Assembly: GCF_000024845.1 (NCBI RefSeq)
Contig: NC_013501.1
Coordinates: 2,398,874 to 2,462,873 of the forward strand
Direction: 5' to 3'
DNA length: 64,000 nt
Source: Rhodothermus marinus DSM 4252
GTDB taxonomy: Bacteria > Bacteroidota > Rhodothermia > Rhodothermales > Rhodothermaceae
Position numbers and translations under genes: made by a program. The notes below the pieces were generated by a model. That model worked only from the letters and a program-made list of their open reading frames with translations. It searched no databases and was not told the origin of the DNA. Within the stretch, counting starts at the first letter, position 1, and each line of letters opens with the position of its first letter. Positions 4,959 to 40,792 of the stretch are shown here, one piece after another.

Positions 4959-6065
4959 TCAGCCCGCGCGGCTATAGCCCAGAAACAGCAGGTCTTCGCC
5001 GACCTCCACCCATCGATGCGCCTCGAAGCGTGGTCCTTCGTCCACCGCGCGCACGCCCAGATCGTTCAGCAGCGGCACGCCCTCTCCGAAAAGACGCGGC
5101 GCGATGAACAGGAAAAAGCGATCGACCAGCCCCTGCCGGAACAGCGCCGTGGCCAGACGAGGACCGGCCTCGACGAGCAGGGATTGCAGGGGGCGGCCGT
5201 CAGGCCCGCCTTCGCGTCCCAGTCGTTCCAGCAGGGCCTCCAGATCGAGGTGTCCATCCCGAAGCGGGAGCGTCCAGACGCGACCGCCTGCCTGCTGCAG
5301 CAAAGCGGCATAGGCCGGTCGCGCACCGGGTCCGACGATGGCCAGCGTGCGGGCAGCCTGTTCGTCGGTGAACAGCCGGAGCGTCGGCGGCAGGCCGCCG
5401 GTCCGGTCCAGCACGATCCGCACCGGTTGGCGTCCTTCGACGTGCCGCACGGTCAGCGCCGGATCGTCGGCGGCCGCCGTGCCACTACCCACCAGCACCC
5501 CGTCGAGCACGGCCCGCCAGCAATGCACCAGCTTTCGCGCCCGCTCTCCCGAGATCCAGCGCGACTGGCCCGTGCGCGTGGCGACAAACCCGTCGAGCGT
5601 CTGTGCCATCTTGAGCGTGACCAGCGGCCGCCCGGTCTCCACATGGTGCACGAACGCCTCGTTGAATCGGCGGCAGGCCGCCTCCAGCACGCCCACTTCC
5701 ACCTGCACGCCATGCGCCCGCAGCCGGGCGATCCCCCGTCCGGCCACCTGCGGAAACGGATCGACCATGCCCACGACCACGCGGGGAATCCCGTGCGTGA
5801 TGATAAAATCGGCGCAGGGTGGCGTTTTGCCGTAATGGGCGCAGGGCTCCAGGTTGACGTACAGCGTGGCCCGGCGCAGTGCTTCGGGGCCGTGGCGCCG
5901 CAACGCTTCCTCGATGGCCACCCGCTCGGCATGCGGTCCCCCGTAACGGTCATGCCAGCCCTCGGCCAGCACCTGCCCGTCGGTGTCCACCAGCACGGCC
6001 CCCACCATGGGATTCGGGCTGACGCGGCCGGCTCCACGAAAAGCCAGCTCCAGACAGCGCACCAT
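4959..6065 (-). CDS. ribD: bifunctional riboflavin deaminase/reductase RibD
   Basis: RibD deaminates 2,5-diamino-6-ribosylamino-pyrimidinone 5'-phosphate and then reduces the ribosyl side chain. The N-terminal CMP/dCMP deaminase-like domain has the zinc motifs HAERVAIEEAL and NLEPCAHYGKTPPC. The C-terminal RibD reductase domain starts near RPLVTLKMAQTLDGFVA and includes the substrate and NADPH region DGVLVGSGTAAADDP. I chose the ATG at 6065 (MVRCLELAFRGAGRVSPNP), because the longer reading from 6140 overlaps the upstream gene by 49 bp. Homologues often start about 8 residues further upstream, where only a CTG is available, so the start is uncertain. It is the last gene of a three-gene operon. 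Confidence 0.92.
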   Translation of the reverse strand: MVRCLELAFRGAGRVSPNPMVGAVLVDTDGQVLAEGWHDRYGGPHAERVAIEEALRRHGPEALRRATLYVNLEPCAHYGKTPPCADFIITHGIPRVVVGMVDPFPQVAGRGIARLRAHGVQVEVGVLEAACRRFNEAFVHHVETGRPLVTLKMAQTLDGFVATRTGQSRWISGERARKLVHCWRAVLDGVLVGSGTAAADDPALTVRHVEGRQPVRIVLDRTGGLPPTLRLFTDEQAARTLAIVGPGARPAYAALLQQAGGRVWTLPLRDGHLDLEALLERLGREGGPDGRPLQSLLVEAGPRLATALFRQGLVDRFFLFIAPRLFGEGVPLLNDLGVRAVDEGPRFEAHRWVEVGEDLLFLGYSRAG

Positions 6066-34151: not shown

Positions 34152-34224
34152 GGGGACATAGCTCAGTTGGTAGAGCGCTGCGATCGCACCGCAGAGGTCA
34201 GGGGTTCGAATCCCCTTGTCTCCA
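34152..34224 (+). tRNA. tRNA-Ala (CGC), integration target
   Basis: The cloverleaf is complete: acceptor GGGGACA/TGTCTCC including the G3-U70 pair that defines Ala identity, D arm GCTC/GAGC, anticodon stem CTGCG/CGCAG with loop ATCGCAC (anticodon CGC), and T arm AGGGG-TTCGAAT-CCCCT. The discriminator is A and CCA is not encoded. Its last 13 bases belong to a 17-bp direct repeat found again at 40408, so the gene is the attachment site of the integrative element that follows it. The tRNA itself stays intact. Confidence 0.96.
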
Positions 34225-34228
34225 CAAC
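34212..34228 (+). repeat. attL, left direct repeat of integrative element
   Basis: The 17-bp sequence CCCCTTGTCTCCACAAC spans the 3' end of tRNA-Ala and four following bases. It recurs exactly at 40408-40424. The two copies enclose the integrase-bearing region. Confidence 0.9.
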
Positions 34229-34287
34229 AGTTGTGTCGCAAGTCTTTGATTTGCAGCGTTTTATAGAGAGGCTAAAAAGACCTCTCT

Positions 34288-34305
34288 CAAGCTTTCCGCA
34301 AGAAA
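34288..34305 (+). repeat. left copy of an 18-bp element-end repeat (possible integrase arm site)
   Basis: CAAGCTTTCCGCAAGAAA occurs here, 60 bp inside attL. It recurs with one mismatch at 40277-40294, 113 bp inside attR and in the same orientation. Paired repeats near both ends of an element are typical arm-type integrase or excisionase sites. Confidence 0.6.
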
Positions 34306-34336
34306 AGCCGGTAGGTTCACCCGCCTACCGGCTTTT
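34303..34336. terminator. element-borne terminator downstream of tRNA-Ala
   Basis: A perfect 13-bp inverted repeat (AAAAGCCGGTAGG and complement) surrounds an 8-base loop with T-runs on both sides. It can end tRNA-Ala transcription, replacing the original terminator displaced to 40433, and can also stop minus-strand transcription of the TerS-like gene. Confidence 0.88.
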
Positions 34337-34544
34337 CGAATTTTTGGCAGGGGTACCCCCAATTTTCGACATCGCGTGCCTCGAGCCGCCGCGCCGGTCT
34401 CCAGGCGGACGGTGGTGGAAGTGCTCACGCCCCTATGGTCGATTTGCCACCGCCACGGTCGGCAGCGGGCGGCCGATCATCAGGCCGGCCGTCGCAGAGC
34501 ACCTTCCAGAGCTCTTCGCTGATCCGGTCGGCCTCGGCGGCTGC

Positions 34545-34564
34545 GGCCGGTCTGATGACCGGCC
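34545..34564. repeat. GC-rich palindrome, copy 1
   Basis: GGCCGGTCTGATGACCGGCC forms a perfect 8-bp stem with a 4-base loop just after the TerS-like gene. A near-identical palindrome lies at 35130-35149. Confidence 0.6.
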
Positions 34565-34574
34565 GTGCGCATCT

Positions 34575-34931
34575 TCACGCGCGCACCACCTCGATCTTCA
34601 CGGCCGACGGCATTTCGGCCTTGTGCTCGAGCGCGATCGATTGCCGCTGGCTCCAGCCGTAGCGTGCGCCGAGCGACCGCAACACGAAACGCGCAGCCTC
34701 GAAGTCGCCTTTGCGGAGCGCCTCGAAAACGACCTGCTCGGCCATGAGCACGGCTAAGCGGCGGAAGGTCTCCAGCTCCTCTTGCAGCCTTCGGTCGCGC
34801 AACAGGTGGTAGTAGACCGTCCGCCGGTCGACGCCGAGCCTCCTGGCCGCAAGGCTTACGATGCCGCCAGCAGCCTCGAGCGCCTCGCGGAGCGCGCGCT
34901 TCGTAATCCGTTTGGGACCGCGTTTCGCCAT
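34575..34931 (-). CDS. terminase small subunit-like HTH protein
   Basis: The 118-aa basic protein starts MAKRGPKRITKRALREALEAAGG. It has a helix-turn-helix (IVSLAARRLGVDRRTVYYHLLRD), a helical region (LAVLMAEQVVFEALRKGDFEAARFVLRSLG) and the end GARYGWSQRQSIALEHKAEMPSAVKIEVV. This closely follows the pattern of phage TerS-like proteins (AARxLGVxRxTVY, KGDxxAAxFxLKxxG, RYGWxER, then an acidic and VKIxVV tail). TerS recognises the DNA to be packaged. A satellite uses its own TerS to redirect a helper phage's packaging motor. No large terminase is present. I chose the ATG at 34931; the reading frame is open upstream but without family character. Confidence 0.6.
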   Translation of the reverse strand: MAKRGPKRITKRALREALEAAGGIVSLAARRLGVDRRTVYYHLLRDRRLQEELETFRRLAVLMAEQVVFEALRKGDFEAARFVLRSLGARYGWSQRQSIALEHKAEMPSAVKIEVVRA

Positions 34932-35044
34932 CGTCTTCCACACCTTACGTGAAAATACGGCCGTGCGGCGCGAAAGCTCCGGCCTTAGCCTCCGGCGGAT
35001 CACCGAGATTCTGGGCGTGAGCGAGTTTACAGTACACCGCGAGC

Positions 35045-35074
35045 TTTCAGGTGTTAGATTTATAACACCTGAAA
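35045..35074. repeat. 12-bp inverted repeat, possible operator
   Basis: TTTCAGGTGTTA and its exact complement are separated by six bases. It lies 114 bp upstream of the TerS-like start and within the HTH remnant. It lacks the GC-rich stem of a terminator, so a regulator binding site is more likely. Confidence 0.5.
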
Positions 35075-35129
35075 ATACACCAGAGGCTACCGGCGCCGAC
35101 GGCAAGACGTATCCGGCACGCCAGCGCAC

Positions 35130-35149
35130 GGCCGGTCTGGTGGCCGGCC
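35130..35149. repeat. GC-rich palindrome, copy 2
   Basis: GGCCGGTCTGGTGGCCGGCC differs from copy 1 at 34545 by two bases and folds with one G-T pair. It coincides with the frame change in the HTH remnant. Confidence 0.55.
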
Positions 35150-35360
35150 GAAGCCGAACGCCAGGAGCTGGCCGAGCGCGCGCAGGCGCTTCGGAGCGAA
35201 GGTGCTACGTTTCCGGAGATCGCCGAGCCGCTGGCGCAGCGCGGCCTGTGCAGTTTGGCTTCAGAGGCACCGAACGGCTTGTGGCCTCGCGCTCGCGACG
35301 CGGCCGCCTTCGTTGCCGCTGCGTCGCCGGCGGGCGTGGCCTTGATCTTCAGCTTGCCGC

Positions 35361-35663
35361 TCATTTCAGCGCGCGCGGACTGATTGAAACGTCCTCGTAT
35401 GGCAAGGCGCCCTCAGGCCGTACCACGACGCGCCAGCCCCAGTCTGGCGGCCCCAGGCCGTAGCAGCTATGCCGCAAGACTTCCTGGACAATGCCGGTGC
35501 GGCCGTCGGGAAGGCGTACGCGGTCGCCCGGCCGTGGAAGCCGGAGTAGCAGCCGAAGGTAGGCCCGCACCTGGCGTTCGGCCTCAGGTTCGAGGCCTTC
35601 CAGGCGAAGCCGCAGGCGGCCACGTGCCGCGGCTATAGGGTCAGAAAGGCGCTTCGTCTTCAT
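35361..35663 (-). CDS. small hypothetical protein of the integrative element, 100 aa
   Basis: From the ATG at 35663 the protein reads MKTKRLSDPIAAARGRLRLRLEG and is strongly basic in its first half, with helical character to about residue 45. Then it turns into a beta-rich segment (PGDRVRLPDGRTGIVQEVLRHSCYGLGPPDWGWRVVV) that resembles a small SH3/KOW-like barrel, as in nucleic-acid-binding proteins. The start overlaps the end of the ATPase gene by 23 bp, so it is in the same transcript. No family can be named. Confidence 0.6.
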   Translation of the reverse strand: MKTKRLSDPIAAARGRLRLRLEGLEPEAERQVRAYLRLLLRLPRPGDRVRLPDGRTGIVQEVLRHSCYGLGPPDWGWRVVVRPEGALPYEDVSISPRALK

Positions 35664-37698
35664 CGTCTTCGAAGGGGTCCCACCAGCCATCACCATCACC
35701 CTCCTTTGTCTCCATACGGTCGGCCACGCCGGCGCCAGCACCATCCCAAAAAATTTCGAAAAGGTTGTCCGCCTCGTCCGCCGTTGTCCGCCCCTTCGAA
35801 AATGGCCTATTTTGGCCGATTTCAGGCGATCGGTGGCGGACAACAGGCGGACAACTGTTGAAAAGGTCGTCCGCCACTTGTCCGCCTGCCGGAGCTGCAG
35901 AATCGGCCAGATTTTGCTGTTTTGAGCCATTTTTACCGTTGGCGGACAAGGCGGACAAGGCGGACGTTTGATTCGCAACTTTTTGGATTCGGATAAGTCG
36001 CGTCCTGGCCTTGCCTGCTCTCACGCGCTCCAGCTTCACCCCTACTTGCAACATCACCGGCTCAAGACGTGCCAGCGTCGAGCCGACGCTTTGCGCCGTC
36101 TTTGGCCATCCCCGCGGCGGACGTTCATGCTGGCCGCGCTGCAGCATGGCCTCCAGAAGCTCCGAGGCCATGCCCTCCCAGGTCTCGACGGCCTCGGCAA
36201 ACGACAGCAGGGCCTCGGCGAAGCTGTCCTCAAGCAGCGAGGCCGCCAGCTCGGCCTGACCGGCGCCGCACGCCTCAAGGAATTCCTCCTCGGTGAAAGG
36301 CAGTGCCTCCGCCGCCGCCAGAACGAAGGCGGCGAAGTCGGCCATTCGGGGTAACTGCTTTGCTTCTACCTCGCCCTTGCGCCGAAGGCCGGTGCTGACG
36401 GCATCGAGCAGCAGGCCCAGCAGGCCAGGCGCCGCCTCGCGGAAGGCCGCCTCCACCTCCTCGGCCGTGCGGCGGCGCTCCGGCGGCATCAGCGCCAGGC
36501 GCACCGGCAGCGTTCGATCGGCCAGGTCCGCCTGGCGCACGAAATCTGGAATGCCGTTGGCCACGATCGGCCGCACGGCTTCGAAAACGACCTCGTCGCT
36601 ATCGGTGTAGAGGCGGCGCGTCCGAAAGCCGCTCCCCGTCGCCAGCCGGCACAGGCCATCGGAAAGCCAGACCGGCAGGCTGGAGACGTTGTCCAATACC
36701 ACCACGTAGGCATTTTGTGCGTAGATGGCCAGGTCGCGCAGCTCGCGCGGCGCGGCATTCAGCGGCGCCTGGCGCGGATCGATCAGAGACGCCAACAGGC
36801 GGCAGGCCGTCGATTTTCCGCTTCCCTGGGGCCCGGTAAGCACCAGAACGGGATAGGCCGGTAACACAGCGAGCGTGCCGACAAGCCAGGCGGTAGCCAG
36901 GATGAAACCGGCGCGGTCGGTGTTCAGCAGCTCGCGAAGTACATTCCAGTCGCCTCCACGCACCGGTTCCGGTAGCGGTCTGGTGCCCGGCGGCCGCTCG
37001 AAGCGGACCGGAAGTTCGGCAATCGGCCGAAGGCGCCAGCCCTCGGCGTCGATCTCGGCGGCCCGAGCCGTTTCATCGCCTAAATCGAGATAAATGCGAT
37101 CGCCCTCGCGGGCCACGCGCACGGAAACCGGATGGCACGGACCGTCGAAGCGTGCGACGGCCTCCAGCGTAGGCAGTGCTTCGGAAATCGCGCTGCTGGA
37201 GGCGCCCTTCCCCTCGCGCGCGTAGAACGCCCGGGCCAGTAGCGACCGCCCCTGAGCCGAGGCAAGCCGGTAGCAGAGGCCGTCCGACGCGCGCAGGTAG
37301 GTCGTGCCTTCAGGCGCATGGAATAATTCGAAGTCGGCGCGCGCATACTCGATCAAGCGGTCGATCGCGGAGCGCCGCTCTTGTTTTTTCTCTTTTCCGG
37401 TCTCCGTCTCGGCCCGGGCCGCCTCCTCCAGGCGCGCACGCTCGGCCTCGACGGCCTGGCCGAGCAGGGCCTGACGAAAGGCCGCGTCCGCCACCTCGAC
37501 AATGTGTTCGTCGATAGCCCGGGCGCCGACGAAGTGGCCAGCGAGGACCTTCGCCGTGCAAGGCCGCTCGGCTATGCAGCGCAGCCGGACCGGGCCGAGC
37601 GCGGGTGCATGTACGAGGAGCGTCTGACGTTCACAGGCGGGGCAGCGGCTCAGGCGGCCGCCTGGAACGTCCACGGGGGGAAAGCCGTTGTTTCCCAT
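35641..37698 (-). CDS. zinc-ribbon P-loop ATPase, candidate satellite replication protein with SSB-like tail
   Basis: The 685-aa protein begins with a zinc-ribbon (CPAC near residue 18 and CIAERPC near 40), as in primase/helicase proteins, followed by a charged helical region. A central ATPase has Walker A LTGPQGSGKSTACRLL at about 285-300 and a Walker B-like segment AYVVVLDNVSSLP about 45 residues later. A helical region follows. The final tail is acidic (DPFEDDEDEAPF), like the C-terminal tip of single-stranded DNA-binding proteins. The family resembles phage and plasmid DUF3987-like replication ATPases; primase activity is not shown. It is downstream of the AlpA-like gene in the same direction. 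Confidence 0.7.
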   Translation of the reverse strand: MGNNGFPPVDVPGGRLSRCPACERQTLLVHAPALGPVRLRCIAERPCTAKVLAGHFVGARAIDEHIVEVADAAFRQALLGQAVEAERARLEEAARAETETGKEKKQERRSAIDRLIEYARADFELFHAPEGTTYLRASDGLCYRLASAQGRSLLARAFYAREGKGASSSAISEALPTLEAVARFDGPCHPVSVRVAREGDRIYLDLGDETARAAEIDAEGWRLRPIAELPVRFERPPGTRPLPEPVRGGDWNVLRELLNTDRAGFILATAWLVGTLAVLPAYPVLVLTGPQGSGKSTACRLLASLIDPRQAPLNAAPRELRDLAIYAQNAYVVVLDNVSSLPVWLSDGLCRLATGSGFRTRRLYTDSDEVVFEAVRPIVANGIPDFVRQADLADRTLPVRLALMPPERRRTAEEVEAAFREAAPGLLGLLLDAVSTGLRRKGEVEAKQLPRMADFAAFVLAAAEALPFTEEEFLEACGAGQAELAASLLEDSFAEALLSFAEAVETWEGMASELLEAMLQRGQHERPPRGWPKTAQSVGSTLARLEPVMLQVGVKLERVRAGKARTRLIRIQKVANQTSALSALSANGKNGSKQQNLADSAAPAGGQVADDLFNSCPPVVRHRSPEIGQNRPFSKGRTTADEADNLFEIFWDGAGAGVADRMETKEGDGDGWWDPFEDDEDEAPF

Positions 37699-37761
37699 GG
37701 CAATTCGTCAGGTTTTGGCCGCCAGCCGCCGAGCAGCGCCCAGCAGCCGGCGGCTTGTTTT

Positions 37762-37959
37762 TTATCGCTGGAGCGTGTCGGCGGCCTTTTGCTCAAGCCA
37801 GGCTTCCAGATCAGAGAGGCGAAAGCGCACGGCCCGCCCCAGATACACGGCCCGGAGTTCTCCGCGCTTTCGGGCTTTCCAGAGGAGCGAACGAGAGACG
37901 TTCAGCAGGCGACAGGCCTCTTTGACGGTAAGCAGGCGGAGATCACTACGTGCTTCCAT
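37762..37959 (-). CDS. AlpA/excisionase-like MerR-type HTH regulator
   Basis: This is a 65-aa protein with a single winged helix-turn-helix: LLTVKEACRLLNVSRSLLWKARKRGELRAVYLGRAVRFRLSDLEAWLEQ in outline (helix_turn_helix_17/AlpA group). Such proteins act as excisionases or activate satellite/prophage gene expression. It precedes the replication ATPase by 63 bp, and its upstream region holds repeated GTAC boxes that may be its operator. In gram-negative PICIs an AlpA protein occupies the same place between integrase and replication genes. Confidence 0.82.
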   Translation of the reverse strand: MEARSDLRLLTVKEACRLLNVSRSLLWKARKRGELRAVYLGRAVRFRLSDLEAWLEQKAADTLQR

Positions 37960-38027
37960 AATTTCTGCGTGTTTGGCCGTTGTTCAGTGTTTTCCGGCCA
38001 CACGCACAGGGGCGATGTGTAGTTTGC

Positions 38028-38056
38028 GTACTTCAGAAAAAGTACACAGAGTACAC
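38028..38056. promoter_or_regulatory. cluster of GTAC boxes upstream of the AlpA-like gene
   Basis: An inverted repeat GTACTT-N6-AAGTAC (38028-38045) overlaps a 9-base-spaced direct repeat AGTACAC (38041 and 38050). It lies in the 107-bp gap between the 340-aa gene and the AlpA-like gene and may bind that regulator. Confidence 0.45.
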
Positions 38057-38066
38057 GCCCGAGCTC

Positions 38067-39089
38067 TCAGGAAAGGTTGCTCTTAAAATGATCGAGTGCC
38101 TGTTTCAGGCTTTCCAGTCGATAGGTGCGCGCATTTTGAACGCCGGCCTCCTTTAGCACTTTATTCAGTCGTTTTCGTACTCCTTCAGGGGTTATAAGGT
38201 CGCCTTCCTTTGTGAGCTGCTCAGAAAGGCGTTTATAAAGTGGTCGATTTTTAATGGTAGGCTCTTTTTGTTTGATTTCAATTGCCATCTCCAACGTTCG
38301 AATGTAAGCCTCACGCACCGGATCAGACCTCTGTGTCGCCAGCCAGGCGTGCGCACCCCATACCACCTGACGCATCTCCTCCTCGATTTCCCACCAGTAG
38401 CGCAGGCATATGGCCGCTTGCCTGGCTTGAAAAAGCGCCTCGCGCACGACGCGATGATCGGGAAGAACCGGCAGGTGCTCTTCTTCCAGATTGAGCTGAA
38501 TTGACAACAGCTCGTTTTCTCCGCTCTGCAGATTCTTATTAAGCTCGCTACCCGGCACCAGCTCTTTTCCGTTGAAGTGCATGCTCCGCAATGAGATAAG
38601 CGGCCTTAGTTCGGCGGCCGTAAGCATTTCAATCTGCTCTCGGGGCGGCCAGTTCGGTTCCTTCAAATCGAACGTGCGAAGCACGTGGTAGTGCAGTTTG
38701 CAGTAGGCCAGCCGCCGGAGACCGGCGGCCAGTGCCTGCCTTACGCGCTGGCTCAAAAGCTCCAGCGAGGCGAGCCCGCACCGGCGCTGCTCGTCGATCG
38801 TCTTGCGAAACGTCTTTTCCGGATATTTCAGCGGGAAACTGATCTCCAGACTTGCCGGGAACCCCTGGAAAAGCTCGGCCAGATCGAGCCGGTCGTGGCG
38901 AAACCCTACGCCGACTTCTTGCAGGCCGCTTCGTTCGTCTGGCATATCGAGCGAAAGGCCCCAGGCGGCGGCATACGTGTAATGAACCGGCTGGCCCTTT
39001 GCGTCGAACCCTATGATCGTTGTGCGAATGTATCGCGCGACGTTGTCAGCGCTCAGCAGGTCAGCCCAGCGAAAGAAGAACGTGTCCAT
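38067..39089 (-). CDS. unknown 340-aa protein of the integrative element
   Basis: I do not recognise this protein. It is soluble, with a mixed N-terminal half (FFFRWADLLSADNVARYIRTTIIGF, then SLEISFPLKYPEKTFRKTIDEQ) and a strongly helical second half with Arg/Lys/Glu-rich helices. Near the C-terminus LYKRLSEQLTKEGDLITPEGVRKRLNKVLKEAG could be an HTH. The gene starts 3 bp after the integrase stop, so it is cotranscribed with the integrase. In phage satellites this position can hold accessory or phage-interference genes, but nothing in the sequence proves that. Confidence 0.65.
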   Translation of the reverse strand: MDTFFFRWADLLSADNVARYIRTTIIGFDAKGQPVHYTYAAAWGLSLDMPDERSGLQEVGVGFRHDRLDLAELFQGFPASLEISFPLKYPEKTFRKTIDEQRRCGLASLELLSQRVRQALAAGLRRLAYCKLHYHVLRTFDLKEPNWPPREQIEMLTAAELRPLISLRSMHFNGKELVPGSELNKNLQSGENELLSIQLNLEEEHLPVLPDHRVVREALFQARQAAICLRYWWEIEEEMRQVVWGAHAWLATQRSDPVREAYIRTLEMAIEIKQKEPTIKNRPLYKRLSEQLTKEGDLITPEGVRKRLNKVLKEAGVQNARTYRLESLKQALDHFKSNLS

Positions 39090-39092
39090 TGT

Positions 39093-40271
39093 TCAAAGCC
39101 CTCGAAAAGCCTTCTCCAGCGCCCGGCGGCGGGACTCGTCCCAGGCGCCCAGGTACTTCTGCAGCGTGTCCAGGTCGGCATGCGTCAGACCCACCAGCGG
39201 CGCCGTGCCCGAAGTGTGGGCCACCAGGCTGACGAATGTCCGCCGTCCGGCGTGCAGGCTCAACACCTGGCATTTGGGCACTTCGCGCCCGTCGCCCAGC
39301 CGCACCGGCGCCACAATCCCGGCGCGTTCGGCAATCTCCTTGACATAGATGTTCACCTTCTGCTCGGAAAGCTTCGGAACGGGCGTCGGCGCGCCGGCCT
39401 CCAGCCGTCGCCGGAGAATGCGTCGGGCAGGCTCCACCAGCGGCACGCGGCGGAAGATGCCGGTCTTCTGCTCCCTGAGGTGCCACACCCCGGCCTCCAT
39501 GTCGATCGTGTCCCAGGCCTCGGGTCGCATGCCAGCCTTCAGGTCCGAGGCGCGAAGGCCCGTGAAGCAGGCCAGCAGGAAGATCGTGCGGGCGCGCTCG
39601 TAGCCCTCCGGAAGGCCGGAAAGATCGACTTCCTGGAAGGCGCGCAATTCCTCAGGCGTCAGAAAGATGATCTCGCGCTTTGCTTCGGGGAGGGGAAGCG
39701 GCTTCGGGGCCTTTTCGAGGAGGCCGCGTTCCTCAAGCCATAGGAAGAAGGTCCGGACGTACTTGGCCAGGCGGTTGGCCGTAGCAGCCGACTGGCCCCG
39801 CTCGGTTGTCAGAAAGGCCTGAAACCGCTCCAGAAAGGCGCGATCGACGCGCTCGATGGTCAGGTCTTCGGCGAAGGCTTCCAGATACTTGCGCACGCGC
39901 GCAAGCACCTGAAGCGAAGAAGACTTGAGCACGAGCCGCTTGACGGCCAGCCATTCGTCGAAGAGCGGAAGCAGGCGGTGCTCCTGAGGCACGAGGCCCA
40001 GATCGGCTTTCAACCGGTCGCGCACGGCCTCCAGCGACTGGCCGGTGAGCAGCAGCGCCTCGGCCCGGGCCACGATGGCTTCCAGGCGTGCGTTGATCTC
40101 GGCGGCCGCCGGTGCCGAAGGCCGCAGGCGCTGGCGGCGCCGGTTCCAGTCGGCAGGGCGCACGCGCACGGGAAGGCTCAGCCAGCACTGGCGACGTGCG
40201 CGAAGGAGGGCCAGTCGGAGCGGCGCGCGGCCGTCAGGCCCTGGACGGTCGAGATAGATTCGAACTCCCAT
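39093..40271 (-). CDS. tyrosine recombinase (integrase)
   Basis: This site-specific integrase would move the element into and out of tRNA-Ala. The start at 40271 gives 392 aa. It begins with an arm-binding segment (VRIYLDRPGPDGRAPLRLALLRARR), then a SAM-like core-binding domain (about 110-200). The catalytic domain has Arg in CFTGLRASDL, the His-x-x-Arg box in SLHAGRRTF and the expected Tyr in DTLQKYLGAWDE. The gene lies 136 bp from attR, the usual placement, with its 3' end pointing into the element. Confidence 0.93.
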   Translation of the reverse strand: MGVRIYLDRPGPDGRAPLRLALLRARRQCWLSLPVRVRPADWNRRRQRLRPSAPAAAEINARLEAIVARAEALLLTGQSLEAVRDRLKADLGLVPQEHRLLPLFDEWLAVKRLVLKSSSLQVLARVRKYLEAFAEDLTIERVDRAFLERFQAFLTTERGQSAATANRLAKYVRTFFLWLEERGLLEKAPKPLPLPEAKREIIFLTPEELRAFQEVDLSGLPEGYERARTIFLLACFTGLRASDLKAGMRPEAWDTIDMEAGVWHLREQKTGIFRRVPLVEPARRILRRRLEAGAPTPVPKLSEQKVNIYVKEIAERAGIVAPVRLGDGREVPKCQVLSLHAGRRTFVSLVAHTSGTAPLVGLTHADLDTLQKYLGAWDESRRRALEKAFRGL

Positions 40272-40276
40272 GTGCG

Positions 40277-40294
40277 CAAGTTTTCCGCAAGAAA
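40277..40294 (+). repeat. right copy of an 18-bp element-end repeat (possible integrase arm site)
   Basis: CAAGTTTTCCGCAAGAAA is the near-identical partner (17 of 18) of the sequence at 34288-34305. It lies immediately upstream of the integrase start codon. Confidence 0.6.
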
Positions 40295-40407
40295 CCTGGC
40301 AACTTTCACGCACAACCGGCGACATTGGTTCACAAAAACCCCTCCAGAATGGCAAATTTTTGGCGTTTGTTGTTGCCGGTCGTTGTCAAAGGTTTTAGAG
40401 ATTTAGA

Positions 40408-40424
40408 CCCCTTGTCTCCACAAC
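40408..40424 (+). repeat. attR, right direct repeat of integrative element
   Basis: This is an exact 17-bp copy of the tRNA-Ala 3' end at 34212. The displaced tRNA terminator follows 9 bp later, as expected after integration. Confidence 0.9.
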
Positions 40425-40538: not shown

Positions 40539-40791
40539 TAGAACTTATCCGAAAAACAAGGGAAGATCTGGTAAGCCGGCGCTTTGCGCTGCGTGTCGAA
40601 GCACGGGTTTGTAGTAAGCCACGAAGGCGCCAGCCGAAGTGGTGTCACCCGAGACGACACTTCGCTGCGCTCCATGCCTGACTACGAGCGCGTTGGTCGT
40701 GCTTCAAACGGCCGGCTATAAATCTCGTCGAAACGCTATAAACAAACCGAAATTGCGAACTTCTTCGACACTATTTTTCGGATGACTTCTA
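40539..40791. mobile_element. MITE-like fold-back element
   Basis: The 253-bp segment has terminal inverted repeats: 40539-40556 reads TAGAACTTATCCGAAAAA, and the complement of 40774-40791 matches it at 16 of 18 positions, with TA at both ends. Inside, AGCCGGC/GCCGGCT (40574, 40711), GAAGCACG/CGTGCTTC (40598, 40698), TAGT/ACTA (40612, 40681) and CGAAGTG/CACTTCG (40635, 40658) are nested in order. The whole segment can therefore fold into one long hairpin. It has no ORF and ends two bases before the hydrolase stop codon. TA flanks suggest mobilisation by an IS630/Tc1-type transposase (inference). Confidence 0.6.
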
Positions 40792-40792
40792 A

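Follow-up and report, generated by a model that had tools for sequence, protein, structure and literature searches.

A candidate minimal phage satellite within a tRNA-Ala gene of Rhodothermus marinus DSM 4252 and its relatives

We identified a 6.2-kb mobile island (element I) within a tRNA-Ala gene of Rhodothermus marinus DSM 4252, in a window of 64 kb that comprises the whole stretch of DNA analyzed (Table 1). The 17-bp att core, CCCCTTGTCTCCACAAC, consists of the last 14 bases of the tRNA gene plus AAC, and a perfect second copy closes a unit of 6,196 bp. The core occurs exactly twice in the window, and there is no third copy there even with three mismatches allowed (shuffled sequence gave a mean of 0.12 such matches). 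The original prediction, that a 17-bp direct repeat of the tRNA 3' end bounds the 6.2 kb, is therefore correct. The 13-bp direct repeat TTTCCGCAAGAAA lies inside both ends, at the positions expected of integrase arm sites. TTCCGCA or its complement is found at similar distances from the cores of element III and of an element in genome G172 (both described below); this placement fits integrase arm sites but is only suggestive, and its orientation varies among elements. Immediately right of attR (40539-40792) is a repeat, about 250 bp long, that is dispersed in many partial copies through this genome and genomes G168 and G170.

Table 1. Features of element I (window coordinates) and positions of related elements (locus coordinates)
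Feature	Position	Strand	Basis or remark
tRNA-Ala (CGC), integration target	34152..34225	+	ARAGORN
attL core, 17 bp	34212..34228	+	exact repeat; tRNA 3' end + AAC
Direct repeat TTTCCGCAAGAAA, putative left integrase arm site	34293..34305	+	
TerS-like HTH protein (P0007), 118 aa	34575..34931	-	phrog_4044 3.6e-4; homologues before TerL
Small HTH gene, motif DGKTYPARQRT, GTG start	34963..35463	+	read from sequence
Conserved 100-aa protein (P0005)	35361..35663	-	85% identical in element II, 54% in G172
Zinc-ribbon P-loop ATPase (P0004), 685 aa, putative replicase	35641..37698	-	homologues' N-termini
37-nt hairpin between alpA and replicase	37718..37754	-	identical in element III
AlpA/excisionase-type HTH protein (P0003), 65 aa	37762..37959	-	HTH_17, TIGR01764, phrog_66
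ORF340 (P0002), 340 aa	38067..39089	-	3 nt after int stop; iolg-like position
Tyrosine integrase, 392 aa from ATG	39093..40271	-	Pfam, phrog_1; ORF open to 40355
Direct repeat TTTCCGCAAGAAA, putative right integrase arm site	40282..40294	+	
attR core, 17 bp	40408..40424	+	exact repeat
Element II	L022:6945-16630 (G000:C1 about 1,164,945-1,174,630)		tRNA-Asp, 15-bp repeat, 9.7 kb
Element III	L175:2320-8583 (G000:C1 about 60,319-66,582)		tRNA-Ser, 16-bp repeat, 6.2 kb
Lone-capsid element with int and AlpA	L027:6046-14677		tRNA-Leu
Lone-capsid element with int and AlpA	L028:7067-15828		start of dnaJ
Lone-capsid element with int and AlpA	L217:292-8722		tRNA-Asn

Most of the genes run leftward, in the order integrase, ORF340, AlpA/Xis, a 37-nt hairpin, the 685-aa ATPase, the 100-aa protein and the TerS-like protein. 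The 6.2 kb contain no capsid, lysis or conjugation gene, in line with the original observation. The integrase matches the Pfam families SAM_5, Phage_integrase and Arm_5, each above cut-off, and it probably starts at the ATG at 40271 because the copy in genome G170 has a stop just upstream. P0003 matches HTH_17 (1.1e-15), TIGR01764 (2.7e-14) and phrog_66 (2.6e-12). The integrase and the AlpA-like regulator of the original prediction are both present. ORF340 has no family match above cut-off and no match among GenBank phages, and a single-sequence search of viral contigs recovered no relatives; its AF2 model, built from the single sequence, was unusable (pLDDT 36). Homologues adjoining int are 54% identical in G172 and 34% identical in G171, and the C-terminus resembles that of ORF325 in element III. 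The hairpin between alpA and the replicase gene may be an opposite-strand terminator, a replication origin or a recombination joint. The same strong hairpin is identical in element III (L175, around 5777-5806) and near-identical in G170 (C37:3059-3094).

The zinc-ribbon ATPase is a P-loop protein, and we assign it as a putative replicase through its homologues. Its core aligns with proteins that carry an N-terminal CHC2 zinc finger and TOPRIM domain (L023, L024) or a Prim-Pol domain (L065), whereas in elements I and II a short zinc ribbon alone is left at the N-terminus. The family, which is replicative, ranges over Acidobacteria, Proteobacteria, Chloroflexi, Meiothermus and others, and at 20 of its 49 genome loci an integrase gene and an AlpA-type gene are both found close by. 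It also occurs in viral contigs and in plasmids of Streptomyces, Methylobacterium and Methanothrix; a single-sequence search of viral contigs with P0004 found no relatives. The 100-aa protein P0005 has no family match above cut-off. Values of dN/dS are 0.26 for the integrase (element I against III), 0.19 for ORF340 (I against G172, with dS near saturation), 0.35 for the replicase and 0.23 for P0005 (both I against II). Because these values lie between 0.19 and 0.35, all four genes are under purifying selection. On the plus strand lies a small HTH gene that resembles a gene of element II, with which it shares DNA and the motif DGKTYPARQRT; it is likely the real gene in place of a previously read minus-strand ORF, and it is possibly decayed downstream of the motif. 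That 105-aa ORF (35047-35364) looks spurious and was rejected.

P0007 taken on its own gives a weak match to a PHROG family, and its Pfam match is a generic Fis-type HTH. However, its homologues in phage contigs (L190, L191, L193/L094 and L194) stand directly before TerL (PF17289/PF03237) and portal genes. These homologues are 27–30% identical (E about 1e-8) and align over most of the length. In three of these contigs (L190, L191 and L193) the TerS homologue has a divergently oriented neighbor that is related to the ATPase. Another homologue, in a small element of genome G174 that also encodes an integrase, an overlapping gene, AlpA and a DnaB-like helicase, has weak matches to three TerS families. 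The AF2 model of P0007 (pLDDT 65) finds several viral models named TerS, all above 1e-3; Foldseek found no match below 1e-3 in the PDB, and GenBank phages gave none. Although remote from the curated TerS families, P0007 is likely a TerS, not a proven one; the original reading of it as TerS-like gains from the position of its homologues, and the protein was not assigned to any unrelated family.

Two further related elements were found in the same genome (3,386,737 b in two contigs), element II in tRNA-Asp and element III in tRNA-Ser. Elements I and II have a 2-kb block in common at 95% identity. Element II encodes a lone HK97 major capsid protein (PF05065, 4.6e-73), with a small HExxH (M50B/M41-like) protein ahead of it, and also a late-activator-like protein; no TerL, portal, connectors, HNH or recognized protease was found in it. 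The integrase of element III is 76% identical to that of element I, its ORF325 (325 aa) overlaps int by 4 nt, and it encodes AlpA and a CHC2/TOPRIM/DUF3987 primase (PF13148, 1.4e-47). No packaging gene was seen in element III or in the G172 element. Since element I matches element III in its integrase and element II in its replicase, the three elements form a mosaic as judged from these comparisons.

Related elements occupy the same tRNA-Ala, with the same att core, in three other Rhodothermus genomes. In G172 the relative is 6.6 kb long and equally gene-poor, and in G170 the two element ends lie on two contigs. In the metagenome-assembled genome G171, one contig carries int, ORF340 and attR and a second one carries an empty tRNA-Ala junction; the right flanks of the two are identical for about 100 bp. 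This pairing is the best evidence for mobility, although the assembly is fragmented and may be mixed or faulty. The closest relative, G168, lacks the element at its tRNA-Ala, but we rejected it as a clean empty site because of a rearranged right flank. Short matches to element DNA in congeners were also considered as CRISPR spacers and rejected, as no arrays surround the eight places inspected. The comparison of genomes with and without the insert that the prediction had called for thus yields both states. Because relatives lie in the same tRNA-Ala in three genomes and one MAG holds empty and occupied sites, we read the region as a mobile integrative element and not a prophage remnant. No longer prophage with capsid or tail genes was found at this tRNA-Ala in the relatives, with G170 and G171 covering only the element ends.

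In anatomy, the closest described counterparts are the phage-inducible chromosomal minimalist islands (PICMI) of Vibrionaceae (PMC10803314). PICMI115 is 6,110 bp long, has 17-bp repeats and carries int, iolg, alpA, up1, prim and up2. Its excision requires iolg, which overlaps int, and can be set off by alpA alone; its replication depends on prim (PMC10803314). Element I has a similar size (about 6.1–6.2 kb in both), direct repeats of the same length and the order int, a gene contiguous with or overlapping int, alpA, replicase and a variable gene next to the attachment site; it too has no capsid remodelling gene. ORF340 occupies the place of a gene contiguous with int before alpA, and because element I shares the gene plan of PICMI115, the position of ORF340, though not its sequence, suggests a partner of the integrase in excision as the best reading. 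However, the att core of element I is in tRNA-Ala and not next to fis, it has a TerS-like gene where PICMI has no terS, its genome holds three related elements whereas PICMI occurs once per genome, and its host is Rhodothermus, not Vibrio. PICMI is further defined by co-located int, alpA and prim, the last recognized by PF13148 or PF19263. P0004 matches neither model and is not a DUF3987/DUF5906 protein, and element I fails the strict definition. Element III, which like PICMI has a DUF3987 primase, carries all three genes and fits the PICMI gene model apart from its integration site.

Element I resembles Gram-negative phage-inducible chromosomal islands (PICI) in having int, alpA, a primase/helicase-type replication gene (assigned through homologues) and a candidate packaging-type gene. 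However, P0007 is TerS-like by remote homology and by the synteny of its homologues, and the element has no recognized gene for capsid size or another form of interference. Its gene order is closer to that of PICMI than to that of the classical PICI. The prediction of a PICI-like satellite is partly borne out: an integrative, satellite-like element is well founded, given the att sites, genes and relatives, with PICMI a closer model than the classical PICI. In cf-PICIs the head and packaging module is complete (PMC10690885); element I has no such module, and element II has only a capsid gene. An HK97 capsid gene is likewise present in three further elements of 8.4–8.7 kb, of the same class as element II (L217, L027 and L028). 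However, all four carry the capsid gene alone: portal, recognized protease, connectors, TerL and HNH were not found, nor was any recognized portal or terminase in those three. Charybdis elements were considered and rejected as unrelated. A literature search, its scope excluding the non-Vibrio elements tabulated in the supplement to the PICMI paper, found no phage satellite in Rhodothermus, which fits the original view that none had been described in this lineage.

At a probability of about 0.65, we favor an intact integrative element whose most likely way of life is that of a minimal phage satellite of the PICMI/PICI type. The sequence itself shows the site-specific insertion in tRNA-Ala, the conserved genes, the relatives at this and other tRNAs and the occupied and empty sites; the satellite behavior is inferred. 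AlpA, with the integrase and an ORF340 acting like PICMI iolg, would excise the element upon phage infection, and the excised circle would begin to replicate through the zinc-ribbon ATPase. The large terminase of the helper would be guided to the element by the TerS-like protein; packed in helper virions, the element DNA would re-integrate at tRNA-Ala in a new host cell. Neither of two TerL families searched for occurs in any of the seven Rhodothermus genomes, which points to no resident helper of those types; the helper, if any, is therefore probably an infecting phage, and by analogy with PICMI a lytic one would fit.

An integrative plasmid-like element, able to excise and replicate, moving by natural transformation, vesicles or chance transduction and with P0007 only an HTH regulator, is an unlikely alternative. 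The plasmid-borne ATPases, the generic Fis-type match and the lack of a packaging gene in element III and G172 are in its favor, but P0007 homologues align over most of the length and stand directly before TerL, a sister element encodes a phage capsid protein, and no partition or relaxase gene was recognized. We consider it improbable that the region is what remains of a larger prophage that kept its integrase, excisionase, replicase and TerS. Every gene has phage relatives, element II has a capsid gene and the replicase and TerS homologues are neighbors in phage contigs; yet G172 has at this site a relative of 6.6 kb that is as gene-poor, similar small elements recur in other genera, and the genes are under purifying selection between intact att sites. 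Least probable is a dead, immobile island that owes its shared place in tRNA-Ala to ancient vertical inheritance: possible decay of the plus-strand HTH gene speaks for it, but presence varies among congeners, the block shared with element II is 95% identical, and G171 has both site states.

Across the genus, a search for the capsid family gave, besides element II, nothing but a fragment at the edge of a contig in G172. Taken with P0007 and locus L212, the three other lone-capsid elements suggest that the slot beside the attachment site holds a TerS, a capsid gene or nothing. We tentatively raise the doubtful possibility of an undescribed minimal-satellite family in the Rhodothermus class, with a shared core (int, the int-coupled gene, alpA and replicase) and a slot that alternates between a TerS redirecting packaging and a lone HK97 capsid replacing or poisoning the helper's shell, the other head genes being borrowed.

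Element I and the two related islands suggest an undescribed family of phage hitch-hikers in the Rhodothermus lineage. If this is true, minimal phage satellites would extend to Rhodothermus, a thermophile for which few phages have been described. Elements with no packaging gene, with TerS only and with the capsid only would offer a natural comparison of the smallest gene set that can hijack a virion, and the three elements in one genome would allow mutual exclusion or help among satellites to be tested. If the lone capsid genes are functional, they would open a new route of hijacking.
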